Assembly (NCBI RefSeq): GCF_003952725.1
Contig: NZ_CP032509.1
Location: 2,442,001 to 2,506,000 of the forward strand
Direction of reading: 5' to 3'
From: Georhizobium profundi
GTDB taxonomy: Bacteria; Pseudomonadota; Alphaproteobacteria; Rhizobiales; Rhizobiaceae
DNA length: 64,000 nt
Below the pieces are notes generated by a model, which saw only the letters and a list, made by a program, of their open reading frames with translations, was not told the origin of the DNA and ran no database searches. Positions 26,091 to 63,896 of this stretch are shown piece by piece. The position numbers and the translations under genes were made by a program. Numbering within the stretch: the first letter of the stretch is position 1; each line of letters starts with the position of its first letter.

Positions 26091-26177
26091 AGATACGCTG
26101 ATTGACAGTGCAGTGTTGCGTGTGGCATTTCTTCAGCGCTTCAAGTAATGCGCTGAATTGATTGAAATCAACAAGAA

Positions 26178-32472: not shown

Positions 32473-33942
<1,470 letters not shown>

Positions 33943-39974: not shown

Positions 39975-41366
39975 TCAGCTGTAGATCCAGCGCGGCAGCC
40001 AGGTGGCCAGCTCCGGAAAGATGAACAGCAACGCGATCGCCACGACCTGCAGCCCGACGAACGGGATGACGCCGCGATAGATCATGCCCGTGGTGACCCG
40101 GTTGGGTGCCACGCCGCGCAGATAGAAGAGCGCAAAGCCGAAGGGCGGCGTCAGGAAGCTGGTCTGCAGGTTGACGCCGATCAAGACGCCGAGCCAGACG
40201 GGATCAACACCGAGATTGAGCAGCACCGGTGCCGTGATCGGCACGATGATGAAGATGATCTCGAATGTATCCAGGATGAAGCCGAGCACGAACATCATCA
40301 GCATGACGACGATGAGCGCGCCATAGACGCCGCCGGGCAGGGCGGTCAGGATGTCGTGGACCAGATTGTCGCCGCCCATGAGGCGGAAGACGATCGAGAA
40401 CACGGATGCGCCGAGCAGGATGATGAACACCATCGAGGTGATGGTTGCGGTGGAGATCGTGACTTCGCGCAGGACCTGGAACGACAGACGCCAGCGCAGT
40501 GCTGCAAGGATCGTTGCGCCGATGGCGCCTACCGAGGCTGCCTCCGTCGGCGTTGCGATGCCGCCGAGGATCGAGCCGAGCACGGCAATGATCAGCATGA
40601 GCGGCGGCACGAGCGCGGTGATGACTTCTTTCCAGAGGTCCTTCTTCTCCTCGGCCGGCACCGGCGTTGCCGGGCAGCTTTCAGGCGCCGTGATCGCCTT
40701 GAAGACCATCCACAGCAGATAGAGACCGACGAGCATGATGCCCGGGATGATGGCGCCGGCGAAGAGGTCGCCGACCGAAACGGGGGCGGGGGCGAAGTTG
40801 CCCTTGGCCATCTGCACCTGGGCGTTGATGCCTGACAGCATGTCGCCCATGAAGATCAGCACGGTCGATGGCGGGATGATCTGGCCAAGCGTGCCCGATG
40901 CACAGATGACGCCGGATGCGAGCTTGGGGTCATAGCCAGCGCGCAGCATGGCCGGCAGCGAGATGAGGCCCATGGTGACGACGGTTGCACCGACGACGCC
41001 GGTGGATGCCGCGAGCAGCGCGCCGACGAGGATCACGGAAATGCCAAGCCCGCCGCGCAGATTTCCGAAGAGCTTGCCCATGGTCAGGAGAAGCTGTTCG
41101 GCGATGCCCGATCGTTCGAGCATCACGCCCATGAAGATGAAGAGCGGGACAGCGACGAGGACCTCGTTCGTCATGAAGCCGAGGTAGCGGCTGGCGAGCG
41201 AGCCAAAATTCGATGGATCGAACACGCCGAAGAACATGCCGACCAGGCCGAAAATGAGCGACACGCCGGCAAGCGTGAAGGCAACCGGGAAGCCCAGCAT
41301 CAGCACGCCGATGATGCCGAAGAACATCGCCCCGGCGAGAATCTCGCCGATCAGTACAGGATCCAT
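39975..41366 (-). CDS. dctM: TRAP transporter large membrane subunit (DctM)
   Basis: A 463-residue protein with about a dozen hydrophobic helices that forms the sodium-coupled transport channel. Family motifs GALLAASTGVVGATVVTMGLISLPAMLRAGYD and GILATPTEAA-like GGIATPTEAASVGA are present, and an acidic loop lies near residues 220-240. It begins 6 bases after dctQ and converges with dctP. Length and topology agree with DctM. Confidence 0.94.
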   Translation of the reverse strand: MDPVLIGEILAGAMFFGIIGVLMLGFPVAFTLAGVSLIFGLVGMFFGVFDPSNFGSLASRYLGFMTNEVLVAVPLFIFMGVMLERSGIAEQLLLTMGKLFGNLRGGLGISVILVGALLAASTGVVGATVVTMGLISLPAMLRAGYDPKLASGVICASGTLGQIIPPSTVLIFMGDMLSGINAQVQMAKGNFAPAPVSVGDLFAGAIIPGIMLVGLYLLWMVFKAITAPESCPATPVPAEEKKDLWKEVITALVPPLMLIIAVLGSILGGIATPTEAASVGAIGATILAALRWRLSFQVLREVTISTATITSMVFIILLGASVFSIVFRLMGGDNLVHDILTALPGGVYGALIVVMLMMFVLGFILDTFEIIFIIVPITAPVLLNLGVDPVWLGVLIGVNLQTSFLTPPFGFALFYLRGVAPNRVTTGMIYRGVIPFVGLQVVAIALLFIFPELATWLPRWIYS

Positions 41367-51807: not shown

Positions 51808-51892
51808 GGAGAGGTGCCTGAGCGGTTAAAAGGGGCGGACTGTAAATCCGTTGGCTTAGCCTACGCTGGTTCGAATCCAGCCCTCTCCACCA
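51808..51892 (+). tRNA. tRNA-Tyr(GUA)
   Basis: An 85-base class II tRNA with a complete acceptor stem (GGAGAGG/CCTCTCC), anticodon loop CTGTAAA (anticodon GTA), a long variable arm, T arm with GGTTCGAATCC and an encoded CCA (51890-51892). It lies 20 bases before tRNA-Gly and shares its promoter. Confidence 0.97.
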
Positions 51893-51911
51893 CTTCGCCT
51901 GATGACTGCCC

Positions 51912-51985
51912 GCGGGTATAGCTCAATGGTAGAGCAGCAGCCTTCCAAGCTGAATATGCGGGTTCGATTCCCGCTACCCGCTCCA
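51912..51985 (+). tRNA. tRNA-Gly(UCC)
   Basis: A 74-base tRNA with acceptor stem GCGGGTA/TACCCGC, D arm AGCTCAATGGTAGAGC, anticodon loop CTTCCAA (anticodon TCC), T arm GGGTTCGATTCCC and encoded CCA (51983-51985). A small hairpin (CCCC/GGGG, 52002-52016) with a T-rich end follows. An integrase remnant begins about 110 bases later, so the 3' end of this tRNA may have been an integration site. Confidence 0.97.
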
Positions 51986-52093
51986 GCCGGTCTCGCAGAA
52001 ACCCCGAAAATGGGGGCTTTTGGCCTGTCGGAAGCGTCGTTGCGCTGACGCTTGGTATACTTTTGTGCACACTGTGCGATGTGCAGGTGCGCG

Positions 52094-52302
52094 ATGAGAC
52101 ACTCCCAGAAGGTCGATCCAGACCGTTTCCTGGTCCAGCAAAGCGGCATCTATTACTACTGGCGGCGGGTGCCAGCGAGATTCCTCCCACTCGACGGACG
52201 CACGGCGTCGGGCTTGATTCGGGCTTCGCTGAAGACCGATGACCTCGCCGAGGCGCGGGCCAAACGAGACGCGTTGGAAGCTGCAGATCAGGACTATTGG
52301 GT
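52094..52302 (+). pseudogene. Tyrosine integrase, N-terminal remnant
   Basis: From ATG 52094 about 69 residues resemble the N-terminus of phage/island integrases: SGIYYYWRRVPARF, then IRASLKTDDLAEARAKRDALEAADQDYW. The similarity stops at about 52300, where the sequence turns into a P-type ATPase in another frame. The catalytic domain (R...HxxR...Y) is missing. This is the relic of the enzyme that probably integrated an element at tRNA-Gly, truncated by a deletion. Confidence 0.75.
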
Positions 52303-52765
52303 TGCGACGCCCCTTCGCTGCACGTGGCCGATGTCGGCGTCTCGGTCGACGTGGCGAGGGAGGCCGCGTCTAGCATCCTTCTCAGAAACGACCTGGACGT
52401 GCTGGTGAAGGGCGTGCGCGAAGGGCGGCGGACCTTCGCCAATATCATGAAATACGTGATGATGGGGACGAGCTCGAACTTCGGGAACATGTTCTCCATG
52501 GCGGGCGGTGTGTCCTGCGGTTTCTACCCATGCTTCCCGTGCAGATATTGCTGAACAACCTACTCTACGACCTCTCGGAGCTTCCCATACCGCTCGAAAC
52601 GGTCGATCGGTGGCGGCCGCCGCTTTGCTTCCCTTCACGTCTGCCGGCGTCTGGCTTGGCTTCCAACCGCCGCCGCCACTGCTTCTCGTTGCGCTTGGTG
52701 GGATGACGGCGGCCTATCTGGACCTTGTCGAGTTCGTGAAACGCCGGTTCTATGGCTGCCATGGT
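52303..52765 (+). pseudogene. MgtA-type magnesium P-type ATPase, 3' remnant
   Basis: Three pieces in three frames match the C-terminal third of a magnesium-transporting ATPase: DAPSLHVADVGVSVDVAREAAS through KTFANI-like RRTFANIMKYVMMGTSSNFGN (to ~52515); LPMLPVQILLNNLLYDLSELPIP (52524-52607); and ALLPFTSAGVWLGFQPPPP through VEFVKRRF (to ~52755). Frame changes occur near 52515 and 52608; the membrane segment between the last two pieces is largely deleted. The 5' two thirds are replaced by the integrase remnant. The gene is dead. Confidence 0.85.
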
Positions 52766-53071: not shown

Positions 53072-53085
53072 ATTGACGCAGATCA
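53072..53085. promoter_or_regulatory. FixK/FNR-type box upstream of the DUF982 gene
   Basis: TTGAC-GCAG-ATCAA, 9 of 10 positions of TTGAT-N4-ATCAA. Its centre is 72 bases before the start codon. A -10-like GATACT lies at 53105-53110, the distance expected for a class II activator site centred near -41. Confidence 0.65.
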
Positions 53086-53150
53086 ATGCCGGGTATTGAG
53101 GCTGCGATACTCGAGGTGGTTTCAGCCTGCTTGTTCAGAAGGTGAAGCCT

Positions 53151-53453
53151 ATGGCGGATCGCTTGTTCGACAGACCTCTGTCCGTGCGCCACAACGAAAG
53201 CGTCACGGTCCAGATATGCAGTGTCCGGGACGCGCTCGATTTTCTCGAAGAAAAGATATTGGGCCGTCAGGATCGGGGATACGAGGTCCTTGTGCAGGAT
53301 TGTCACGACGTCCTGGAATACAGAAAGCCAATCCGAGCGCTGTATGATGCCTTCCTCCGTCTGGCACTCCACGAAGATCTTCTCGTCGATCCCGCGTCGA
53401 CAATCCTCTGGATGAGAGGAAAAAGGCGAGGGCGGGGATCCTCATCGCCCTAG
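53151..53453 (+). CDS. DUF982 protein
   Basis: A 100-residue soluble protein with the DUF982 pattern found almost only in rhizobia: FDRPLSVRHNESVTVQICSVRDALDFLEEKI, then YEVLVQDCHDVLEYRKPIRALYDAFLRLA. Its function is not established. ATG 53151 has AAGGTGA just upstream; a GTG at 53142 would add three residues. The FixK/FNR-type site in front suggests expression at low oxygen. It appears to be a single-gene unit. Confidence 0.8.
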   Translation: MADRLFDRPLSVRHNESVTVQICSVRDALDFLEEKILGRQDRGYEVLVQDCHDVLEYRKPIRALYDAFLRLALHEDLLVDPASTILWMRGKRRGRGSSSP

Positions 53454-53520
53454 CGTCGCCGTCAACGGGTTCTTCCGTCCTCGCGGCATGCGTCGGCGGG
53501 CGCCGTCAGGAACCCGCGAC

Positions 53521-53534
53521 TTGACGAACGACAA
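53521..53534. promoter_or_regulatory. Weak FixK/FNR-type box upstream of the lipoprotein gene
   Basis: TTGAC-GAAC-GACAA, 8 of 10 positions of the dyad TTGAC-N4-GTCAA or -ATCAA type. Its centre is 64 bases before the ATG, the same geometry as the better sites in this island. Alone it would not be convincing. Confidence 0.35.
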
Positions 53535-53591
53535 CGCGGCGACGCGCGTTTGATGGCACCATGCACCCTTGGACAGGCAAGGAGAGCACCC

Positions 53592-53804
53592 ATGCGATGG
53601 ATTGTGATCGCTGTGGCAGCCATGACGCTGTCGGCTTGCACGACTGAGGCAGCGCGGCACTACCAGGATTTGCCGGGCTACGCATACCGCACGGATCTGG
53701 CATGCAAGCGCACCGAAGCGCCATCCGAATTCGACGAGCGGTGCGATTGCCCGCGCCTGGGATTTGAAGGGTTCGATCCGCGCACCGCTTGCGCCATCAA
53801 CTGA
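53592..53804 (+). CDS. Small lipoprotein
   Basis: A 70-residue protein with a lipoprotein signal: MRWIVIAVAAMTLSAC, lipobox LSAC with lipidation at Cys16, then a short mature part with four cysteines (ACKR, RCDCPRLGF, TACAIN) that could form disulfides. AAGGAGAG precedes the ATG at 5-base spacing. It should reside in the periplasm attached to a membrane. No family is recognised. Confidence 0.75.
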   Translation: MRWIVIAVAAMTLSACTTEAARHYQDLPGYAYRTDLACKRTEAPSEFDERCDCPRLGFEGFDPRTACAIN

Positions 53805-53828
53805 CGCAATGGCTTGCGCCCATAAGAA

Positions 53829-53842
53829 CTGACTTCGATCAA
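53829..53842. promoter_or_regulatory. FixK/FNR-like box upstream of the ABC exporter operon
   Basis: CTGAC-TTCG-ATCAA keeps a perfect right half-site and 8 of 10 positions overall. Its centre is 59 bases before the GTG start, as with the other sites of the island. Confidence 0.5.
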
Positions 53843-53893
53843 TGAGTGGGATGGCGGTTCGCGCAATGGTAGCGGTTCGTTGGAGCTGCCGCC

Positions 53894-54601
53894 GTGACCG
53901 AGGAAGTCATCCGGGTCGAGAAGCTGACCAAGATCTACCGCTCGGGCGAAGTCGACGTGTCGGCACTCAGCGGCGTGGACCTGTCGCTTGAGCGCGGCGA
54001 AATCGCCGTCATGCTGGGACCATCGGGAAGTGGCAAATCCACCTTGCTCAACCTTATCGGCGGTCTGGACAGGGCGACCTCAGGCCGTATCTGGTTCAAT
54101 GGGACTGAACTCACGGAGGCGAGCGATCGGGCGCTGACGCGCTACCGCCGCGAGCACCTCGGCTTTGTCTTCCAGTTCTACAATCTCATCCCGAGCCTGA
54201 GCGCCTTGGAAAATGTCGCGCTCGTCACAGAGATCGCCCCGGAGCCCATGGCGCCGGACGAGGCGTTGGCGATGGTCGGCCTGAAAGACAGGATGCACCA
54301 TTTCCCGGCGCAACTCTCCGGCGGCGAGCAGCAACGCGTCGCGATTGCGCGAGCCATCGCCAAGCGTCCGGAACTCATGCTTTGCGACGAGCCGACCGGG
54401 GCCCTCGATTCCAAGACCGGGATCATCGTTCTCGAGGCGCTGACCCGGATCAATCGCGACATCGGAACGACGATCGCGATTATCACCCACAACGCCGTGA
54501 TCCGTGCGGTCGCCGATCAGGTCTTCACTTTCAAGGACGGGAGGATCGCTGACCATCAGCGCAACGCAAGCCGCCTGGAAGTGTCGCAGGTGAGTTGGTA
54601 G
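53894..54601 (+). CDS. ABC transporter ATP-binding protein (MacB/LolD-like)
   Basis: A 235-residue cytoplasmic ATPase that energises the FtsX-type permease downstream. Walker [10 protein letters not shown] (about 43-51), signature [14 protein letters not shown], Walker [13 protein letters not shown], and the switch histidine (IITHN) are intact. The start is GTG 53894 with GGAG 8 bases upstream. The permease start follows its stop immediately (54601/54602). The MacB/LolD subgroup usually moves lipoproteins, peptides or drugs across the envelope; the cargo here is unknown. Confidence 0.92.
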
Positions 54602-56955
54602 ATGGCAGTGCTCGACCGCAAGCTCGTCCGCGATCTACGGCGCATGTGGATACAGGTGCTTGCCGTTGCGCTGGTGATGGCGTGCGGGGTCGCGACCATC
54701 GTTCTCTCGATCGGCGCCTATCGCTCGCTGGAGGAAACGCGAAGCGCCTTTTACGATCGCTACCGCTTCGCCACCGTCTTCGCCCATGCCACGAGGGCAC
54801 CGCTCTCGCTGAAGGCCGACTTCGCAGGTCTGGACGGCGTCGCGGCGCTGGACCTGCGGATTTCAAGAACCGCCATTCTCGACATGGAAGGGATGCGAGA
54901 GCCGGCCTCCGCGACCGTTCTCTCGCTGCCGGCGAGCGTCGAAGGGCCGGTCAACCGGCTTTATTTGCGTGCCGGGCGGTGGCCTGAGGCGGAAAGCGAC
55001 GAGGCCGCCGTGCTCGCGAGCTTCGCCGAAGCGCACGCGCTCGTGCCCGGCAGCCACTTCGCTGCGATCCTCAATGGCCGCAAGCGGCGGCTGACCGTGA
55101 CGGCGATCGTCCTGTCGCCGGAATTTGTCTATGCGCTCGGTCCGGGAGACATGGTGCCGGAAGCCCGTCGCTTCGGCGTCATCTACTTGCCGCGGGACGA
55201 TCTCGAAGGGCTCTTCGGCATGCAAGGGGCGTTCAATGATCTCGTTCTGCGCACCCAGCGCAACGCCCAGCTGCCAGAGATCATCGACCGCATCGACGAT
55301 CTGCTGGCGCCTTATGGCGGCACCGGCGGGATCGAGCGAAAGGATCAGACGTCGCACGCGTTCCTTGATAACGAACTGGTGCAACCGCGCCCATGGCGAC
55401 CGTCATTCCGCCGGTGTTCCTCTTCGTATCGGCGTTTCTGGTCAACATGATCCTCGCGCGCCTCATCGCACTGGAGCGCGAGCAGATCGGGTTGATGAAG
55501 GCGGTCGGCTATGGAGCACCGGCCGTGGCCTGGCATTATGCCAAGATGACGCTTGCGATCGGTCTCGCCGGTATCGTCATCGGAGGTGTCGCCGGCACGC
55601 TCATGGGGCGTGGGCTGACCAGGCTCTACGGCGAGTTCTTTTCCTTTCCATTTCTCGTATTTCGCCAAAGCGCCGACTTGTACGTCGTCTCGGCTGCCGT
55701 GAGCGGCGTTGCCGCCCTTGGCGGTGGCGCGCAGGCAATTTGGAGCGTGCTGAGACTGCCGCCTGCGGTGGCGATGCAGCCCCCGGCACCCACGGTCTAT
55801 CGCCGGGTGATCGGCGGGCGCCTAAGCCGGATGATGTCGCAACTCGCCCTGATGGCGCTGCGCCATCTGTTGCGCTGGCCGCTGCGGTCGGGCCTCACCA
55901 CGCTCGGCACGTCGTTCGCCACCGCCTTGCTGGTGACGGCGCTATTCTCGTTCGATTCCGTGGCGAATATGGTCGAAAACGTCTTCTTCCGCACCGAAAG
56001 GCAGGATGCGACGCTGATCTATTCGGGCGAGCGGACAGGCACATCGGCAGGGGAAGTGGCGCGTCTGCCCGGTGTCTTGAGGGTGGAGAGCTTCCGCGCG
56101 GCGCCTGTCACGCTGACCAATGGACACCGCCAGCGCAGGCTGCTCATCGCAACGGTCGCCCCGGATGCCGATCTGGTGCGTGTGCTCGATCGTGATCTTA
56201 ATCCCGTGGTGCCGCCGCCCACGGGACTGACCCTTTCCGAACGCGTCGCCTCCATCCTGCATCTGTCAGTCGGCGACCTCGTCCAAGCCGATTTCCTGGA
56301 GTATCCAGGACGCACGGTCGCGCTCCCCGTGGTCTCGGTGGTACAAAGCTATGTCGGACTGGCCGTGTTCATGGCGCCCGACGCCCTCGACCGTACCATC
56401 GGCATGGGCCCCCGAAGAACCGGCGCGCGCGTCGCGCTTGATCACACGCGGCTCGGTGATTTTTATGCCGCGGTCAAATCGACGCCCGCCATCGGATCGG
56501 TGGCGCTGCAGATCGAGGCGCGCCGCAAGTTCAAGGAAACCATCGAACGCAACATCGCCATCATGACGACGGTCTATGTCAGCCTTGCGGTGATCATCAC
56601 GTTCGGCGTGGTCTACAACTCCGCGCGCATTCATCTGTCGGAACGCGCGCGTGATCTCGCCAGCCTCAAGGTGCTGGGCTTCACCAATGGCGAGGTGTCG
56701 ACCGTGCTTCTGCTCGAGCTCGCCATCATCGTTCTCCTGGCGCAGCCACTCGGCTGGGCGCTGGGATCGGGCTTCGCCTGGAGCGTCGTGCGCGGCTTCG
56801 AAAGCGATCTTTTCCGCATCCCCTTTGTCATCGACCGATCGACCTTCGCCATCGCGAGCCTCGTGGTGCTGCTGATCGCTGCTCTTTCGGCACTGGTGGT
56901 CCGGCTGCGCATCGACAGGCTGGATCTGGTCCGCGTTCTGAAGACGAGGGATTGA
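54602..56955 (+). pseudogene. FtsX-type ABC permease, split by a single-base frameshift
   Basis: The 5' part (54602 to about 55390) encodes an N-terminal transmembrane helix and periplasmic domain, ending at HAFLDNELVQ. The homologous continuation (ATVIPPVFLFVSAFLVNM, to 56955) lies in the -1 frame and starts near 55393. One missing base in the C-rich run CCGCGCCC around 55385-55392 explains it. Joined, the protein has about 784 residues with two FtsX domains, the normal size. No other lesion is seen, and the operon partners are intact, so a recent mutation or a sequence error are equally possible. Confidence 0.85.
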
Positions 56956-56958
56956 GCG

Positions 56959-58152
56959 ATGCGCAAACGCTGGCCGACACGGATCGTCTATGGGCTTGTC
57001 GGGCTCGGTCTTGCCGGTGCCGCATGGTGGGCGCTTCGCGAGCAGCCGGTGCAGGTGGATGTCGCCATCGTCAGGCAGGGCCCAATGGAAGTGCTGGTTC
57101 GCGAGGAGGGCGTCACGCGCGTGCGCGATGTGTATACCGTCTCTGCGCCCATCGCAGGTCACCTTGCCCGCGCGACGCTCCAAGAGGGCGATCGTGTGGA
57201 AGCGGGCAAGACGGTCGTGGCTGCGATCCATCCTCTCGATCCGCCGCTCATCGACCTTCGGTCCGAAGCCGAACTGCGATCGGCCCGCGAGGCAGCGATT
57301 TCCGCCGTTCGAATCGCGGAGGGCGATCTGCGGCGCGCAGAAACGGCGCTGAAGCTCGCCGAAGACGAAGAGGCAAGGGCGCTGAAGCTCTTCCGGCCCG
57401 GTGTCATTTCCGAAAGCGCACTGGAGCGCTTCACCAACGAAGTCGCGCTCGAAAAGGCGGCGGTAGAGGCTGCGCAGGCGATGGTTGCCTTGCGTCGTGC
57501 GGAATTGTCGAGCGCCGAGGCACGCCTCACGCAACCGACAGCCACGCGAGCAGACGAGGGGTGTTGCATGGAGCTGCGCGCACCCGTGTCGGGAACGGTG
57601 CTGGCCATCCATGCCCGAAGCGAGCAGGCAGTCACGCCAGGGGCGCCGATCCTGGATGCCGGCGACACCGCCAATCTCGAAATCGTCGTCGATCTCCTGA
57701 CAGATGACGCGGTGCGTATCAAAGCTGGCACCAGGGCCCGCATCGTCGGTTGGGGAGGGCAGGAACACCTGCCCGCTGCGGTGCGGCGGGTCGATCCGGC
57801 CGCTTTCACCAAGGTGTCCGCGCTAGGCATCGAGGAACAGCGGGTTCATGCGATCCTAGATCTTGAGCGACCGGAGCCCCGTCTCGGACACGGCTTTCGC
57901 GTCGTCGCCGAGATCGTGGCCTGGGAGTGTCCGCGATGCCTTCTGCTCCCCATCAGCGCGCTCTTCCGCGTCGGCGACCACTGGCAGGTCTTCCGCCTCG
58001 CGGACGGCAGGGCGCAAGCAGCCGATGTTACCGTCGGCCGCATGAACGAAGAGGTCGGCGAGGTGATTGGCGGACTTCAGGCAGGTGACGAAATCGTGCT
58101 TCATCCGACCGATGCGCTCTATGACGGACGAATGGTCGAGATGCGCGATTAA
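56959..58152 (+). CDS. HlyD-family periplasmic adaptor protein
   Basis: A 397-residue membrane fusion protein that couples the ABC exporter to the outer membrane or periplasm. It has an N-terminal transmembrane helix (about residues 7-25), a biotinyl-lipoyl half (REEGVTRVRDVYTVSAPIAGHLARATLQEGDRVEAGKTV), a helical hairpin from about 105 to 195, the second lipoyl half (LRAPVSGTVLAI), and a beta-barrel domain. An unusual CPRC pair lies at residues 324-327. The ATG follows the permease stop by three bases. Confidence 0.92.
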   Translation: MRKRWPTRIVYGLVGLGLAGAAWWALREQPVQVDVAIVRQGPMEVLVREEGVTRVRDVYTVSAPIAGHLARATLQEGDRVEAGKTVVAAIHPLDPPLIDLRSEAELRSAREAAISAVRIAEGDLRRAETALKLAEDEEARALKLFRPGVISESALERFTNEVALEKAAVEAAQAMVALRRAELSSAEARLTQPTATRADEGCCMELRAPVSGTVLAIHARSEQAVTPGAPILDAGDTANLEIVVDLLTDDAVRIKAGTRARIVGWGGQEHLPAAVRRVDPAAFTKVSALGIEEQRVHAILDLERPEPRLGHGFRVVAEIVAWECPRCLLLPISALFRVGDHWQVFRLADGRAQAADVTVGRMNEEVGEVIGGLQAGDEIVLHPTDALYDGRMVEMRD

Positions 58153-58172
58153 GCGTTCCTTCTCGGCGGCCG

Positions 58173-58186
58173 TTGATTGAGATCAA
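58173..58186. promoter_or_regulatory. Perfect FixK/FNR box upstream of the flavodoxin-fold gene
   Basis: TTGAT-TGAG-ATCAA matches the FNR/FixK consensus TTGAT-N4-ATCAA at all ten positions. Its centre is 56 bases before the ATG at 58236; with a site centred near -41, the leader would be about 15 bases. Confidence 0.8.
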
Positions 58187-58235
58187 GGCAGAACGGTTCG
58201 ACTGACGACAAGGTGGTCACGTTTAAGGGACGCCT

Positions 58236-58829
58236 ATGCCGCGCAAAGTCCTCATCATCGTCGGTCACCCCGACCCCAATCCCCAGCGGTTCTGTCGCGC
58301 GCTGGCTCAGTACTACGCTGAGGGTGCGCGAAGCTGCGGACATCTTGTCCGGGTAATCGATATCGCAGCGTTGGATTTTCCGCTGCTGCGCTCCGCGGCA
58401 GAGTTTGAAGCCTCTTCTCCGCCGCCGACCCTGGTGGACGCCGCTCGGGCAATCCAGGACGCCGACCACCTCGTCTTCATCTTTCCCCTCTGGCTCGGTA
58501 CCATGCCAGCGCTGCTGAAGGGCTTCCTCGAACAGGTGATGCGGCCAGGATTGGCCTTCGCCTATCCTGAGAAAGGCAAGCCGGGCTTCGCAAAGACCTT
58601 GCTCGACGGCCGCAGTGCCCGGGTGGTGGTGACGATGGGGATGCCAGCGCTCTTCTACCGCTTTTGGTATCTCGGCCACGGCATTGCCGGCTTCAGGCGC
58701 AACGTGCTCAGCTTCGTCGGGATCAAGCCCGTACGGGAGTCGTTGTTCGGCATGGTAGACGGCGTGAGTGTCCAGAAGCGCAAATCCTGGTTGGTCGCAA
58801 TGAGGAAGATGGGCGAAACGGCCAGCTGA
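58236..58829 (+). CDS. NAD(P)H dehydrogenase (quinone)-like flavodoxin-fold protein
   Basis: A 197-residue FMN/FAD-binding oxidoreductase of the NQO1/KefF/MdaB group. The N-terminus KVLIIVGHPDPNPQRFCRAL is the phosphate-binding loop, and FPLWLGTMPALLKGFLEQVM is the family core motif. It probably reduces quinones or other acceptors with NAD(P)H. AAGGGA precedes the ATG. A perfect FixK/FNR box in front suggests induction by low oxygen. Confidence 0.88.
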   Translation: MPRKVLIIVGHPDPNPQRFCRALAQYYAEGARSCGHLVRVIDIAALDFPLLRSAAEFEASSPPPTLVDAARAIQDADHLVFIFPLWLGTMPALLKGFLEQVMRPGLAFAYPEKGKPGFAKTLLDGRSARVVVTMGMPALFYRFWYLGHGIAGFRRNVLSFVGIKPVRESLFGMVDGVSVQKRKSWLVAMRKMGETAS

Positions 58830-59247
58830 AGGAAAACCGCTTGTGGTCGAATTGCTTCACTATTCCAGTCTTCGATCTGGAACGTTTCCGGACGGTTGGC
58901 CCAAATCTCCAACGATTTCCTGAGCTTAATGAGCTTAACAATCGAGACCGGAACGCTGCCGAACCTGAGAGTGCACTATCTCAAACCTGACCTGTGGCCT
59001 GTCGCTCCGATCTCCACCCGTGCCCGCGGATGGTTTGAAGGGCTGCCCGATCTTACGAAGCGGTGCCAGCGGCGGTCGAAACAGATGTTCGCGGGGGGCA
59101 ACAAATTGACTCTTGCGGCGCGGAGCCAGGGCCTGCGGATGTAATATGTCTGGCCGCTTGCGGTGTCCGGCTTTAGCGCCGGGCTGCCGGCGACACGAAG
59201 GTCGTACGCGGTATGTTGGCCGGTCGCCCGACGGGCTGACCGATGCG
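58830..59247. other. Intergenic region without a supported gene
   Basis: About 420 bases between the oxidoreductase and the BON gene, which is on the opposite strand. Short frames are present on both strands, but none has a ribosome site with a family-like protein. It may hold further decayed sequence. Confidence 0.4.
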
Positions 59248-59523
59248 TCAGGCCAGGGTGATGCGGTCCTCAACGGCCGTCACGCCCGGCGCCGACCATG
59301 CGGCGCGTTCAGCGGCCTGCCGGTCGGTCCACACTTTCACATGGCCCTCCAGCGTCACTCTTCCGTCGTGAACGTCGACCCGGATCGTTTGGGCCTCCAG
59401 TTCGGCATCGCGCTTGAAGACATCCTCGATGCGCTTCTTGATGTCGGTCGCCTCCGCCCGTGGCTTTCCCGCGACCGCGGCGCGGTCGGCCTGCGGTCGA
59501 GCGCCGTCGAAGCGATTCTTCAA
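59248..59523 (-). CDS. BON-domain protein (single domain)
   Basis: A 91-residue protein whose last ~65 residues are a complete BON domain: ATDIKKRIEDVFKRDAELEAQTIRVDVHDGRVTLEGHV, then AERAAWSAPGVTAVEDRITL. BON proteins bind membranes or phospholipids and are often made under osmotic or envelope stress. Related proteins usually have two or three such domains, so this may be a truncated copy. The only start is TTG 59523, but an AGG and a FixK/FNR-type dyad at the expected distance upstream support expression. Confidence 0.7.
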   Translation of the reverse strand: MKNRFDGARPQADRAAVAGKPRAEATDIKKRIEDVFKRDAELEAQTIRVDVHDGRVTLEGHVKVWTDRQAAERAAWSAPGVTAVEDRITLA

Positions 59524-59572
59524 AGCAGCCTAAAAAACCGGCGCTCATGCGCCGTCTGCGACGTACCGGCCA

Positions 59573-59586
59573 TTGACGCGCGTCAA
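59573..59586. promoter_or_regulatory. FixK/FNR-type dyad between the divergent BON and bactofilin-like genes
   Basis: TTGAC-GCGC-GTCAA is a perfect inverted repeat of the FixK type. Its centre is about 57 bases from the BON start codon and 68 from the GTG at 59648 on the other side, so one site could serve both genes. Confidence 0.7.
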
Positions 59587-59647
59587 GGCGGTCGAAACTG
59601 GCTGTGAGATGCTTCTCGAAGTTGCAGGCGCAAAGTCGGAGCGTGTC

Positions 59648-60829
59648 GTGAAACAACTTCCATGGATAAGCGCGAGCGGGGCGCTGCTTTGCCTGGGTCT
59701 GCTTGTGGCTGGGGCCGCGCACGCCCAGGAGGGTCCCATCGATGTCGGAGGTGACAGGTTCATTTCGATGTCGTCGGTGGACACAAGCGCCGGCAGCACG
59801 CGCGACATGTTCGCTGCCGGATTTTCGACGCGGGTGAGCGCCCGCGTGGAAGGCGACCTCCATGCGATCGGCTTTGATGTGGAACTGGATGGCCCGGTGG
59901 GCGCCGACCTCTATGCGGCCGGATTTTCGGTCGAGATCGACGCCCCGGTCGGCTCCGACCTGACCGCTTCGGCGGGTGATCTGGAATTGAGATCGGGCGC
60001 TGAAGTCGAGGGAAACGCCCGCATAACGGCTGGCTCGGCGCGGTTGGACGGCCCGATCGCGGGGAGTTTGATGGCAACCGCCGGATCGCTGCAACTGAAC
60101 GGCACGATCGCCGGCGATGCGCACCTGGCCGCAGGAGCCATAGCCTTTGGCAAGGAGGCACGGATCGGCGGCACATTGACCTATTCCGCGCCCAAGCCGA
60201 TCGACATCCCGTCGAGCGTGGTACCCTCCGAGCGGGTGCGCTATGAAAAACTTTTGCCAGGCATGATGGACGAGATGCGGAGCCGTCTCCACGAGCCTTT
60301 TCGCGAGATCTGGCCATCGATCCTCAGCGTTCTCGCCTTTTTCGTGCTGACGATCGCGTTCTTGGTTCTCGTCGCGGCGATTGCCCATGCATTCGCGCCG
60401 CGCACCACCGACACACTCCGTGCTCAGACGGTACGCCACCCGTTTCGTTCGATCCTTCTCGGGGGCCTCGGCCTTTCTATGCTGATCGGCCTCATCCCGG
60501 TCAGCGCAATGACGCTGGTCGGTATTCCCTTGATCCCGATCGTGGTCCTGTCGATCCTGGTGGTGTGGGTGGTCGGCTATCTGCTGGGCGTCCACGCGCT
60601 GACCTGGAGCATCGCTCACGCCTTCTCGTCGGCGCCGACTCGGCCACTGGGCCAGCTTTTCCGGCTGACGATCGGCCTGATCTGTTTGGCGCTCCTCAAT
60701 TTCATCCCATTTCTCGGATGGCTCGCCAATCTGACCGTCATCTTCCTTGGGCTCGGCGCCCTCATGCAATATGGCGCGGAGCGGGTAAGCCGCGCGCCAA
60801 GCGAGACTGCGCCAGGTGAGCCAACCTGA
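59648..60829 (+). CDS. Secreted bactofilin-like domain fused to a membrane domain
   Basis: A 393-residue protein. GTG 59648 with GGAG at 59638-59641 gives a clean signal peptide (VKQLPWISASGALLCLGLLVAGAAHA); an earlier in-frame ATG at 59609 would lie upstream of the transcription start predicted from the FixK/FNR site. Residues about 45-170 repeat short strands such as RVEGDLHAIGFDVELDGPVGADLYAAG, the beta-helix pattern of polymer-forming bactofilins. After a charged link, about four transmembrane helices fill residues 220-370. Function is unknown; an envelope stress role is inferred from the neighbours. Confidence 0.75.
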   Translation: MKQLPWISASGALLCLGLLVAGAAHAQEGPIDVGGDRFISMSSVDTSAGSTRDMFAAGFSTRVSARVEGDLHAIGFDVELDGPVGADLYAAGFSVEIDAPVGSDLTASAGDLELRSGAEVEGNARITAGSARLDGPIAGSLMATAGSLQLNGTIAGDAHLAAGAIAFGKEARIGGTLTYSAPKPIDIPSSVVPSERVRYEKLLPGMMDEMRSRLHEPFREIWPSILSVLAFFVLTIAFLVLVAAIAHAFAPRTTDTLRAQTVRHPFRSILLGGLGLSMLIGLIPVSAMTLVGIPLIPIVVLSILVVWVVGYLLGVHALTWSIAHAFSSAPTRPLGQLFRLTIGLICLALLNFIPFLGWLANLTVIFLGLGALMQYGAERVSRAPSETAPGEPT

Positions 60830-60881
60830 CGGCCACCGATGTCATTGGGCATCGGAAAAAGTGCAGCGCAAGCGACGAGCT

Positions 60882-60895
60882 TTGACGGCGATCAA
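60882..60895. promoter_or_regulatory. FixK/FNR-type box upstream of hsp20
   Basis: TTGAC-GGCG-ATCAA, 9 of 10 consensus positions. A GACAAT at 60917-60922 is a fitting -10. Its centre is 88 bases before the hsp20 ATG. Confidence 0.65.
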
Positions 60896-60975
60896 TGCCG
60901 CTTTCCGTGCGTTCGCAGACAATCTCACCATCAGCGGCGGATATCCGCCGCGTCACGATATTGGAGACGAGTATC

Positions 60976-61509
60976 ATGGCTGAAGCCGCTACAAAAATGC
61001 CTGTCAAAACCGAAAAGACTTCGGTTCCCTCCAATGAAAACGACTGGATGCCCTTCGACAGCCTGCGCCGCGAGATCGACCGGCTGTTCGAGGACTTCAG
61101 GCCGTTCGGATGGCCGTTGCCGACGCGCCGCTCCTCCTTCGCCATGGACATTCCAAGGGCGACGGATGGCTGGTCGATGAACCCGGCCTTCGATTTCGTC
61201 GAGAAGAATGCGGTATACGAGATCACGGCGGAATTGCCGGGCATCGATGAAAAGAACATCGAGATCAAGCTCAGCAACCACCTGCTCACCATACGAGGTG
61301 AGAAATCGGAATCGAAGGAAGAGAAGGACAAAGATTATTTCCTGTCCGAAAGGCGCTTCGGGTCGTTTCAACGCTCCTTCCGTGTTCCGGAGGGCGTCGA
61401 TACCGACAGGATCGATGCGAATTTCTCCAAGGGCTTGCTGACACTTCATCTTCCCAAATCAGCCGAGGCACGAAACGCGGAGAAGAAGATTGAAGTCAGG
61501 GCCTCCTGA
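60976..61509 (+). CDS. hsp20: Small heat shock protein Hsp20
   Basis: A 177-residue alpha-crystallin-type chaperone that holds unfolding proteins. ATG 60976 follows GGAGACGAG. The N-terminal arm has WMPFDSLRREIDRLFEDF; the alpha-crystallin domain runs from about 70 to 165 (VYEITAELPGIDEKNIEIKLSNHLLTIRGEK; FQRSFRVPEGVD; GLLTLHLPK). The C-terminal IEVRAS tail is short. No ROSE or other thermosensor is seen in the leader; a FixK/FNR box suggests oxygen control instead. The end overlaps the pseudogene on the other strand. Confidence 0.93.
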   Translation: MAEAATKMPVKTEKTSVPSNENDWMPFDSLRREIDRLFEDFRPFGWPLPTRRSSFAMDIPRATDGWSMNPAFDFVEKNAVYEITAELPGIDEKNIEIKLSNHLLTIRGEKSESKEEKDKDYFLSERRFGSFQRSFRVPEGVDTDRIDANFSKGLLTLHLPKSAEARNAEKKIEVRAS

Positions 61510-61735
61510 TCGACAATCGATTGTTGGCTTTGCGGAGGAGTTCAGCGGAACGATCGCGCGTGACCTTCATCGTTCCGGGCTCGTCCGGGTGCACCTCAAT
61601 CCTGAAGCCGATCTTTCGGCACATGGCGAGCATTTGGTCATTGTCGGAAAGGAGGCCCTCGATCCGCCCCGTCTTCTCGGCGCGTGCATGGTCGATGAGA
61701 TGGTGTCCTGTGGCGGGGGGATAGCGGACCGTGTC
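61496..61735 (-). pseudogene. GNAT acetyltransferase, C-terminal remnant
   Basis: About 70 residues in one minus-strand frame match the last third of a GNAT domain: HHLIDHARAEKTGRIEGLLSDNDQMLAMCRKIGFRIEV, then PDEPGTMKVTRD. Such C-terminal GNAT units also end protein-acetylating acyl-CoA synthetase-like enzymes. The acetyl-CoA-binding motif upstream is missing, and the next sequence is a different gene remnant in another frame. Confidence 0.7.
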
Positions 61736-62330
61736 TCTTGGCGAATGAACCAGAGCCCCGGCAGCGTCGGAAGCCAAAGCGTGAAGCCTCGTGGAATGAG
61801 CGTTGCGGCAATTGCCGGCTCGAGATCGCTTCCCATGGAATGCAGCAGGCCTACGCAGGCGCCCTCGAAGAAGCCAAGCCCGAGAGGGACTGGTGAAAAT
61901 GTCGCAGCGACGCTCGCGAGGCCGAAGCTAAGAATGCCGCTTCGAGGGCGAATGAGAGGCCAACGGCTCTTCCCGCGGCGAAAAGCGTCAGGACGTGGCA
62001 GCCAAATATCGCAGTCTGAAACAGAAAAGTCTCCGTCAGAAGCCGGACGTCTAGAAGCAGGCGACGATCCGCTTGGCTGATAATGGATTCGATCCGTGAC
62101 CAAGGGCTGGCGCTGTCGGCTTCTGACCGCCATCCACCGCGGGCCAGCAGGATCGCTGCGGCAAGGGAAAGCACTGTAAGCGCGGTGACGAACAGAAGCA
62201 TGAGGGACCGCCGAGATTGTTCCAAGTGACGGTCCAGCACCAGCAGGAAACTGAATGAGGCGACGGTTGCATAGGTTGCGTAGCAGGAGATTCCTTCGAC
62301 CACCATGCAGCTGCTGACAAGTGATGGCGG
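61735..62330 (-). pseudogene. UPF0104 (LPG synthase TM / flippase-like) membrane protein, frameshifted
   Basis: Two minus-strand frames together resemble the C-terminal half of a UPF0104 membrane protein. One frame reads VVEGISCYATYATVASFSFLL through TETFLFQTAIFGCHVLTLF and SFALEAAFLA (about 62320-61928). The next frame continues with ASVAATFSPVPLGLGFFEGAC and RGFTLWLPTLPGLWF (about 61925-61740). The frame break is near 61925. The N-terminal half is missing, cut off by the junction with the FtsH remnant near 62335. Confidence 0.75.
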
Positions 62331-62344
62331 AACCCTTCGCCGCT

Positions 62345-62807
62345 TCAGGCCATGCGCCACGAGGACGGTACCGGAGACTTGGCCTTCGATTTCCCGATGT
62401 TCACCAATCCGCCCAATCCCTGGGCTTGAGCCATGCTGCGCGAAATCAGAAGCCAGATGCCGAAGAAGATCAGCGTCGGTGCCACCCAGGACGCGAGAGT
62501 GGTCAACCAGTTGCTGTCGGAGCCGCCGGGCGACGTCGACACCGAGGCTTTCAAAGATCTCGGCTGCCGCCGGATCGACGCGTTGCGCCACAAAGCAATC
62601 GCGGCCGTTTATCGGGCTCCTGAACTGACCCTCGATCAGCGTTTCGGTGATGGTGACATTGACAATCTTGCCTTCTTTGGCGTCCTGAACAGCTTGCGAG
62701 TATGTGAGTTGCGCCACATCGCGCGAACCCAGCCAAGCCTGGAAGAGGAGGAGCAGCGCGAACGCGACGATGAAATATCCGAGGTTGAACGTCCACTTCC
62801 GATCCAT
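62345..62807 (-). pseudogene. ftsH: FtsH protease, N-terminal remnant, frameshifted
   Basis: From the ATG at 62807 the first frame reads MDRKWTFNLGYFIVAFALLL (first transmembrane helix) through YSQAVQDAKEGKIVNVTITETLIEGQF and VDPAAAEIFESLGVDVARR. The reading then moves to another frame near 62530: NWLTTLASWVAPTLIFFGIW (second helix) to LGGLVNIGKSKAK. Sequence for the AAA+ and protease domains is absent; the gene ends at GKSKAK, just before the ATPase domain would begin. It is a relic of an additional FtsH, not the housekeeping copy. Confidence 0.82.
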
Positions 62808-62884
62808 ATCGAGACCCGCCGCTTGCCCCGCGGCGAGGCTGGCCGCGACGTTCGCCATCAAGCAGAGGCGGGAGCGAACATGCA

Positions 62885-62898
62885 TTGACCCTCGTCGA
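62885..62898. promoter_or_regulatory. Degenerate FixK/FNR-type box upstream of the ftsH remnant
   Basis: TTGAC-CCTC-GTCGA matches the TTGAC-N4-GTCAA dyad at 9 of 10 positions and lies about 85 bases before the ftsH' ATG on the minus strand, comparable with the hsp20 site. It suggests that the decayed unit once belonged to the same regulon. Confidence 0.4.
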
Positions 62899-63194: not shown

Positions 63195-63896
63195 ATGAGC
63201 CGCCTATCGCATTCGGAAATTCACATGGTGCATCGCATCGGCTGGCTGCGGGCGGCCGTTCTGGGAGCCAATGACGGCCTTGTCTCGACGGCGAGCCTGG
63301 TCGTCGGTGTCGCCGCGGCGGGGTCTGGAAAGCCGGAGGTCTTGGTCGCCGGGCTCGCCGGCCTTGTGGCGGGTGCGATGTCTATGGCGGCAGGCGAGTA
63401 TGTGTCTGTGAGTTCCCAGACCGATGCGGAGCAGGCCGATCTTGCACGAGAAACGCGCGAACTGGCGGAGATGCCCGAGGCGGAGCTCGAAGAGCTTACC
63501 CGGATCTATGTCGACCGGGGGCTCGATCGTGACTTGGCGGAAAAGGTGGCCACTCAGCTGACCGAGCGCGATGCGCTCGGAACGCATGCTCGCGACGAAC
63601 TCGGTATTTCCGAAACCGTGACAGCCCGCCCGATCCAGGCGGCCCTGGTGTCGGCCCTCACATTCGCAACGGGTGCGGTCGTTCCGCTGATTGTCGTTCT
63701 ATTGGTGCCGGCAACATCGATCGGTTTGTGGGTGGCGGTGTCGACGATCGTCGGTCTCGCGCTGCTTGGTGGTTTGGGTGCCTCCGCCGGCGGCGCAGGT
63801 GTCCTGTGGGGCGCTCTGAGGGTCACCCTTTGGGGCGCCCTCGCAATGGCTGCGACCGCCGCTGTCGGAGCCTTGTTCGGTGTCGCGGTGGGTTAG
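63195..63896 (+). CDS. VIT/CCC1-family transporter (iron/manganese)
   Basis: A 233-residue membrane protein with the VIT1/CCC1 pattern: a first helix with RAAVLGANDGLVSTASLVVGVAAAG, a second with VAGLAGLVAGAMSMAAGEYVSVSSQTDAEQADLARE, a cytoplasmic acidic loop (about 90-140) and three C-terminal helices. Relatives move Fe(II) or Mn(II) out of the cytoplasm. AAGGAG precedes the ATG. Length is normal and no lesion is seen, in contrast to its neighbours. The last 100 bases of the window hold no gene I can support. Confidence 0.92.
   Translation: MSRLSHSEIHMVHRIGWLRAAVLGANDGLVSTASLVVGVAAAGSGKPEVLVAGLAGLVAGAMSMAAGEYVSVSSQTDAEQADLARETRELAEMPEAELEELTRIYVDRGLDRDLAEKVATQLTERDALGTHARDELGISETVTARPIQAALVSALTFATGAVVPLIVVLLVPATSIGLWVAVSTIVGLALLGGLGASAGGAGVLWGALRVTLWGALAMAATAAVGALFGVAVG

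Follow-up and report, generated by a model that had tools for sequence, protein, structure and literature searches.

We analysed a window of 64,000 nucleotides from the genome of Georhizobium profundi (4.36 Mb in one contig, NZ_CP032509.1; positions 2,442,001 to 2,506,000 of the forward strand), together with the sequence that follows it. An integrative genomic island lies at the 3' end of a tRNA-Gly gene in this window; a repeat flanks it, and the corresponding site of a relative is empty. Our subject is the left half of this island (window ~53.0-67.7 kb), which carries stress-related genes, a series of FNR/FixK-type dyads before them and the gene for a Crp/Fnr-family regulator, and which we interpret as a putative regulon. 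Positions follow the numbering of the window, and window-equivalent positions continue the same numbering beyond its end. A perfect dyad is TTGAY-N4-RTCAA, or the looser TTGAN6TCAA where stated.

The genes of the left half (Table 1) agree in part with the initial annotation of this stretch. The ABC and HlyD components of the exporter, the flavodoxin-fold oxidoreductase and Hsp20 stand as named, whereas the BON gene is truncated, the FtsX gene is frameshifted and the FtsH gene is partial; for the DUF982 and bactofilin labels matches exist, but below the Pfam cut-offs. The FtsX permease is split by one frameshift near 55.39 kb (55380-55450), and its homologues are unbroken single frames of 787 amino acids in genome G031 and 791 amino acids in Afifella. 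The HtrA/PDZ gene of the island is, like FtsH, partial. Part of the stress module is decayed in this strain (FtsX, BON, FtsH, HtrA/PDZ). Residues 20-91 of the BON remnant are 94% identical (72 amino acids) to residues 144-215 of a 215-residue BON protein encoded at genome position 1549030, which suggests copying between the two loci; the latter gene has a dyad of its own. The GTG start of the bactofilin-like gene (59648) was picked by eye from the signal peptide, and relatives of this protein are present in 7 of 150 other family genomes. No respiration or haem genes were recognised in the left half, and no Clp ATPase was found among the left-half proteins scanned.

Table 1. Features of the tRNA-Gly island, in window numbering
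Feature	Position	Strand	Evidence or remark
tRNA-Gly (TCC), 3' end = island attachment site	51912..51985	+	ARAGORN; empty site in same-genus G024
Left flanking direct repeat, core CGCTCCAGCCGGTC	51972..51992	+	blastn 21 bp, 95%
Integrase-type N-terminal fragment (DUF6538), adjoins tRNA	52052..52408	+	Pfam PF20172, 36.4 bits
P-type ATPase fragment	52297..52554	+	52% identity over 54 amino acids to residues 594-647 of an 856-residue open reading frame of G125
Perfect FNR/FixK-type dyad TTGACGCAGATCAA	53073..53086		Centre 71.5 bp before DUF982-like gene
DUF982-like small protein	53151..53453	+	Pfam PF06169, 17.0 bits, below cut-off 22.2
One-mismatch dyad TTGACGAACGACAA	53521..53534		Centre 64.5 bp before lipoprotein gene
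Small Cys-rich putative lipoprotein	53592..53804	+	Open reading frame; no Pfam/NCBIfam match; lipoprotein by eye
One-mismatch dyad CTGACTTCGATCAA	53829..53842		Centre 58.5 bp before ABC gene
ABC exporter ATPase	53894..54601	+	Pfam PF00005, 122.5 bits
FtsX-type permease, N-terminal part	54602..55450	+	Residues 1-264 of intact 787-residue G031 homologue
FtsX-type permease, C-terminal part, other frame	55393..56955	+	PF02687, 89.2 bits; residues 266-787 of G031 homologue
HlyD/RND-type periplasmic adaptor	56959..58152	+	PF13437, 46.3 bits; TIGR01730, 108.9 bits, over cut-off
Perfect dyad TTGATTGAGATCAA	58173..58186		Centre 56.5 bp before flavodoxin-fold gene
Flavodoxin-fold NAD(P)H oxidoreductase	58236..58829	+	PF02525, 119.8 bits
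BON-domain protein, C-terminal remnant	59248..59523	-	PF04972, 59.5 bits
Perfect dyad TTGACGCGCGTCAA, between divergent genes	59573..59586		56.5 bp to BON; ~68.5 bp to bactofilin-like GTG
Secreted/membrane bactofilin-like protein	59648..60829	+	PF04519, 21.5 bits, below cut-off 27.9
Perfect dyad TTGACGGCGATCAA	60882..60895		Centre 87.5 bp before Hsp20
Hsp20 small heat-shock protein	60976..61509	+	PF00011, 86.1 bits
FtsH N-terminal remnant fused to other membrane sequence	61851..62807	-	PF06480, 24.5 bits, just below cut-off 25.5
One-mismatch dyad TTGACCCTCGTCGA	62885..62898		Centre 84.5 bp before FtsH remnant start at 62807
VIT1-family membrane transporter	63195..63896	+	PF01988, 230.9 bits
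Crp/Fnr-family regulator	66914-67681 (window-equivalent)		Outside window; genome 2508914-2509681 = L028:15415-16182

Clustering of the dyads in the island

The initial annotation had listed seven dyads, and all seven were found in the sequence, the first at 53073 and not 53072; each has Y as its fifth and R as its tenth base. The sites at 58173 and 59573 are perfect, as had been described, and so are those at 53073 and 60882, while the sites called weak (53521) and degenerate (62885) are one-mismatch forms. The distance from dyad centre to start codon, which had been described as roughly constant, measures 56.5-87.5 bp across the seven window sites. The array runs on past the window end: a DUF378 gene has a perfect dyad centred 84.5 bp upstream (window-equivalent 64085), and a phasin gene has one centred 119.5 bp upstream (window-equivalent 64878).

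A further claim, that no comparable site turned up at the promoters looked at in 26-51 kb, is inexact as worded: perfect matches are present at 26158, 32513 and 40171, though none stands before a predicted gene start. The match at 32513 lies within a sufB-like gene and that at 40171 within a TRAP-permease-like gene (both named by eye). Rival promoter sites in this region were rejected because the perfect matches are coding or have no predicted gene start after them.

Across the genome, TTGAN6TCAA occurs 66 times against 12 for the reversed control, and TTGAY-N4-RTCAA 33 times against 2; the two same-genus genomes contain 17 and 18 of the latter, compared with the 33 found here. A genome-wide scan for enrichment in the island, which had been proposed as a check, revealed strong clustering: 6 of the 33 sites fall inside 12 kb of the island, an arrangement that did not arise once when 33 sites were placed at random 20,000 times. 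The 14.7-kb island region contains six perfect dyads, whereas its dinucleotide shuffles contain 0.04 on average (six or more in 0 of 2000). Dyads with at most one mismatch are located 40-125 bp upstream of 10 of the 14 listed island gene starts, a list that excludes the FtsX parts and the PDZ remnant, and of 0 of 65 control genes. The controls comprise 46 genes of window 1-51.7 kb and 20 from locus L029, minus one at window base 1 without upstream sequence; because operon-internal genes are included, their chance of carrying a promoter is lowered.

Conservation of the dyads before homologous genes

We searched 297 family genomes for Hsp20, of which 39 gave a match at E<=1e-30, and obtained loci for 30 of the 42 matches. 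A perfect TTGAN6TCAA is present within 300 bp upstream in all 30 loci examined (21 genera, own included), whereas a control stretch of the same size, 600-900 bp downstream of the start, contains a perfect dyad in 1 of 30. The HlyD protein of the ABC/FtsX/HlyD operon has a match in 70 of the 297 genomes. Twenty of the first 26 HlyD matches after our own were sampled, leaving out G031 and G130 (perfect dyads already seen), G077, G144, G121 and G643; in 18 of these 20 homologous operons the 300 bp in front of the ABC gene contain a perfect dyad, compared with 0 of 20 controls. The promoter of our own ABC gene carries a one-mismatch form, unlike the perfect dyad of most homologous operons. Unbiased tests of conservation cover these two gene families, Hsp20 and the ABC exporter. 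When the ABC, phasin, Hsp20 and BON promoters of different genera are set together they scarcely align, and 16 of the 18 rows contain a perfect dyad and 2 a one-mismatch form; the rows for phasin, Hsp20 and BON were mostly preselected for the dyad, and the alignment is an illustration and no test.

It is extremely improbable that chance or the composition of the island produced the dyads. With one mismatch allowed, the window as a whole contains 22 matches where 13.5 are expected, a modest excess (1 of 100 shuffles is equally high) that would suit a chance origin. The perfect matches, however, were equalled by none of the shuffles or random placements, a perfect dyad stands before homologous genes at the frequencies given above for Hsp20 and ABC, and permuted half-sites yield almost no matches. 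We rejected this origin on the basis of the shuffles, the random placements and the conservation before Hsp20 and ABC genes.

The island regulator and the candidate activators

The regulator gene of the island is an intact open frame whose product contains a cNMP-binding domain (PF00027, 50.1 bits) and an HTH_Crp_2 domain (PF13545, 68.8 bits), both over cut-off. Its recognition helix reads T-V-E-S-V-S-R (E-x2-S-R). The solved structure nearest to it by sequence is FixK2 (4i2o), and its best NCBIfam model is FnrL, with 191.5 bits below the curated cut-off of 300. Four cysteines are present, in the arrangement C-x4-C-x2-C plus a central cysteine. FixK lacks N-terminal iron-sulfur cysteines, and an assignment of the island regulator to FixK does not fit a protein that has kept four. 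We also rejected its identification as a canonical FnrL, given the score, the cysteine spacing and its position in a separate clade.

In a tree of 87 regulator sequences, an 18-row island-type clade (100/99) is set apart from a 68-row, mainly chromosomal FnrL clade (100/99). Ten of the 11 preselected island-type regulators fall inside the 18-row clade, and that of Afifella (L134) is on the chromosomal side. The 'island' group of the tree was preselected by identity; the remaining eight rows of the clade carried no island label beforehand and include copies without island context. The spacing C-x2-C-x7-C with a central cysteine is found in nearly all rows of the chromosomal clade and also in the island-type L091, L129 and L131-L133. 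The re-spaced C-x4-C-x2-C pattern with the central cysteine occurs also in Nitratireductor indicus (L127), in Mesorhizobium alhagi (L128) and in a further genome of the family, G700 (L313), and in total in four of the six close relatives read, of which five form a sub-clade of the tree and G700 was placed by 65% identity only. Two N-terminal cysteines are kept in N. luteus and one in the same-genus genome G125.

The density of perfect dyads is 2.24 per 10 kb at eleven island-type regulator loci (43 in 192 kb), two of which (L091, L095) are from one genus. It is 1.15 per 10 kb at 69 other FNR loci (135 in 1179 kb), most of them of chromosomal FnrL, and 0.91 per 10 kb at four intermediate loci, L134-L137 (6 in 66 kb). 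Three of the 69 other loci (L144, L162, L186) fall in the island-type clade of the tree. Eleven permuted half-site controls gave averages of 0.01-0.02 per 10 kb. The genes that follow the dyads at island-type loci include Hsp20, phasin, BON, universal stress, host-attachment/baeRF and DUF2267 genes, as well as phosphoribosyltransferase, P-type-ATPase-like and ABC exporter genes. We rejected dyads around any FNR gene as the explanation of the island array, as the Hsp20 and ABC tests are independent of regulator loci. At the level of the order, with a strict cut-off and no more than six candidates scored per genome, 5 of 396 other genomes yielded an island-type regulator.

Nine proteins of our genome score above 40 bits for HTH_Crp_2, and only three of them have an E-x2-S-R or E-x2-C-R helix: the island regulator and a FixK-like protein (L018), both with E-x2-S-R, and one protein with E-x2-C-R. 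No other protein of the genome matches the island regulator at E<=1e-20, so canonical FnrL seems to be absent. FixL-, FixJ- and FixK-like genes are located at genome positions 3622640-3625716, the best NCBIfam models of their products reaching 335, 194.5 and 112 bits, all below cut-off. Outside the island, dyads precede ccoN and ccoG (both proteins over the model cut-off), and further promoter-like sites stand at universal-stress, BON and SPW-repeat-like genes; many other sites are intragenic. We also observed two small stress loci with perfect dyads, one at 1544500-1553000 (L125; SPW-repeat-like and catalase-like genes, BON) and one at 926500-938000 (L115; universal stress). Genes similar to those of L125 and L115 stand together with an island-type regulator in the same-genus genome G125 (L087).

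Because the dyads are clustered, are conserved before Hsp20 and ABC genes, and are accompanied by a regulator encoded in the island itself, with an E-x2-S-R helix, we propose that the left half of the tRNA-Gly island is probably an accessory stress regulon under CRP/FNR-family regulators of the FNR/FixK class (probability about 0.8). The same three lines of evidence support the FixK/FNR-type regulon suggested in the initial annotation. Two outcomes named there as refuting it, an equal dyad density in the rest of the chromosome and a lack of conserved sites in related loci, did not occur.

Several observations weigh against this proposal. Among the genes of the left half, neither the VIT1-family gene nor the CBS gene has a dyad 40-125 bp upstream. 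Conservation in other genera, well supported for the Hsp20 and ABC exporter homologues, does not extend to the bactofilin-like homologues, where a dyad lies directly upstream in one of six other loci (L096, and not L088, L093, L097, L098 or L101). Two of the 20 ABC operons have no perfect dyad within 300 bp, and the distance from dyad to start varies from 80 to 250 bp among the Hsp20 relatives. The canonical C-x2-C-x7-C spacing is absent from the island regulator, whose own gene is preceded by degenerate (one-mismatch) dyads only; the regulator copies of Aquibium and M. alhagi have no dyad with one mismatch or fewer in the 140 bp examined, a one-mismatch dyad being found at 141 bp in M. alhagi. 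A regulator is present together with zero perfect dyads at L092 and L094, of the same clade, and at the order-level locus L222. The 69 other FNR loci also exceed the genome average in dyads, and the enrichment at regulator loci is therefore partly general. Finally, the island-type regulator was found in few of the genomes with an Hsp20 dyad (G000, G086, G090, G031, G130 and, more weakly, G577), in regulator samples that need not have included all the others, and the Hsp20 dyad is thus not a specific pointer to it.

The last of these points bears on which regulator acts. The dyads may be served by the chromosomal FixLJ-FixK system only, the island protein being decayed or responsive to another signal, with a minor part in control; we regard this as a serious contender, somewhat short of even odds. 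The genome does contain FixL-, FixJ- and FixK-like genes, the Hsp20 dyads are universal among the loci examined though few of those genomes were found to carry the island-type regulator, and the regulator of a same-genus relative has lost most of its N-terminal cysteines. On the other side, the regulators of this clade sit in dyad-rich stress loci in several genera, about twice as dense as other FNR loci, and our own copy retains an intact frame, its four cysteines and an intact recognition helix.

The signal might instead be nitric oxide or another redox cue, perceived through a DNR/NnrR-like member of the family. Relatives that sense nitric oxide use a nearly identical dyad, and a universal-stress gene that has a perfect dyad lies ~4 kb from the gene of the E-x2-C-R protein of our genome (933319-933882). 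We consider this decidedly unlikely, as no denitrification or nitric oxide genes were recognised among the dyad-preceded island genes, while in the same genome dyads precede ccoN and ccoG, which are typical low-oxygen genes; the sole NCBIfam match of the E-x2-C-R protein at E<=1e-10 is FixK, with 66 bits below cut-off.

For the accessory stress regulon proposed here, we infer oxygen as the signal, FixK and the island protein, in some share, as the acting regulators, and a physiological benefit under stress. At low oxygen, one or both would bind TTGAY-N4-RTCAA and activate the island transcription units, the candidate activators being the host FixLJ-FixK system and the island FNR-like protein, with probably overlapping targets. 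Hsp20, the exporter, the flavodoxin-fold reductase, the bactofilin-like protein, DUF378, phasin and CBS proteins could then protect envelope and proteins in oxygen-limited stress. The 'envelope and redox stress' role suggested earlier agrees with this list of predicted genes. On the regulon proposal, a regulon of the FNR/FixK class that consists of non-respiratory stress genes recurs on islands and plasmids of Rhizobiaceae, in some cases together with its own regulator. Hypoxia control of the Hsp20 group can be predicted in many genomes, because the dyad is present in each of the 30 loci examined.

We speculate, with considerable doubt, that the N-terminal cysteine spacing has changed in an FNR clade that moves together with these stress modules, and that each new host acquires from the island a portable low-oxygen response on top of its own. 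The module would then be tuned to another oxygen or redox threshold than the host FixLJ-FixK system. The re-spaced cysteines would be a concrete case of how a mobile regulon may change its signal.

Related modules and the insertion site

The kind of module described here is already known, as pSymA and pSF45436d carry similar dyad-rich modules; the self-carried regulator with re-spaced cysteines is the newest part. The 590-639 kb region of pSymA in Sinorhizobium meliloti 1021, which we take to be controlled by FixJ/FixK, contains Hsp20 (51%), PDZ protease (29%), CBS (29%), BON (49%) and phasin (40%) genes, an ABC/FtsX/HlyD exporter (65/40/45%) directly after the Hsp20 gene, a Crp/Fnr regulator, and universal stress protein- and P-type-ATPase-like genes identified by eye, together with 12 TTGAN6TCAA dyads, 11 of them intergenic. 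It differs in lying on a symbiotic megaplasmid and not on a tRNA island, in a Crp/Fnr protein that is only 33% identical and in an unbroken exporter. The stress module of pSF45436d in Sinorhizobium fredii CCBAU 45436 includes Hsp20 (59%), BON, universal stress, FtsH, DUF2267, host-attachment, PolX and APH/ATPase genes. Over 24.5 kb it contains 11 dyads, of which 9 are intergenic; it is borne on a plasmid (typed conjugative), and a Crp/Fnr gene is not listed in the stretch read.

Alphaproteobacterial FnrL/FixK regulons share the dyad consensus, and their core targets are respiration and haem genes. The regulator family and the recognition-helix residues are alike, whereas the island left half has no recognised respiration or haem gene and has its own divergent regulator. 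The mycobacterial DosR dormancy regulon places Hsp20, universal stress, CBS and P-type ATPase genes under one hypoxia regulator, and DosR, a response regulator, acts through another box. The island resembles it in outline through a similar gene set, and related islands share phosphoribosyltransferase and APH/ATPase genes with that outline; this comparison, in which no mycobacterial sequence was used, carries no claim of common regulatory descent. The sole regulator recognised in the island left half is of the Crp/Fnr type, and no search directed at DosR was made. The enterobacterial transmissible locus of stress tolerance is a mobile cluster with Hsp20, FtsH and HtrA-type genes and a Clp ATPase (ClpG/ClpK), from which the island differs in its partial FtsH and HtrA genes and in having no Clp ATPase among the proteins scanned.

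The island adjoins the 3' end of the tRNA-Gly gene, which together with tRNA-Tyr spans 51808-51985. The right copy of the flanking repeat is located at window-equivalent 84681-84701, directly before tuf and outside the window. In G024, a genome of the same genus, 219 bp separate this tRNA-Gly from tuf, and the sequence matches. Because the repeat recurs before tuf and the G024 site is empty, we conclude that ~32.7 kb was inserted at tRNA-Gly. Different sequence follows the tRNA-Gly of G125 and G090, and this site may thus have served repeatedly. Beside the tRNA the only integrase trace is the N-terminal fragment of 118 amino acids with DUF6538, presumably a mark of phage-type integrases; in the right half, three proteins were scanned with hidden Markov models. 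The P-type ATPase fragment next to it has no Pfam match on its own, and the G125 open reading frame that it resembles was read as a P-type ATPase by eye.

From the list of open reading frames, the right half of the island encodes by eye a branched-chain amino-acid transporter, an aconitase-like protein and other catabolic genes, and it contains zero perfect dyads in the 20 kb read from genome position 2512001. A remnant of an M41 peptidase (FtsH C-terminal type) lies at its right end (L029:13701-14339, window-equivalent ~83.7-84.3 kb), whereas the N-terminal FtsH remnant is in the left half (61851-62807). Elsewhere in the window, the perfect dyad TTGATTGAAATCAA (26158-26171) is intergenic, with no correctly oriented predicted start within 350 bp, and directly follows a phage-like block. 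This block (window 1-26000) consists of large co-directed open reading frames that resemble, by eye, a tailed-phage structural module.

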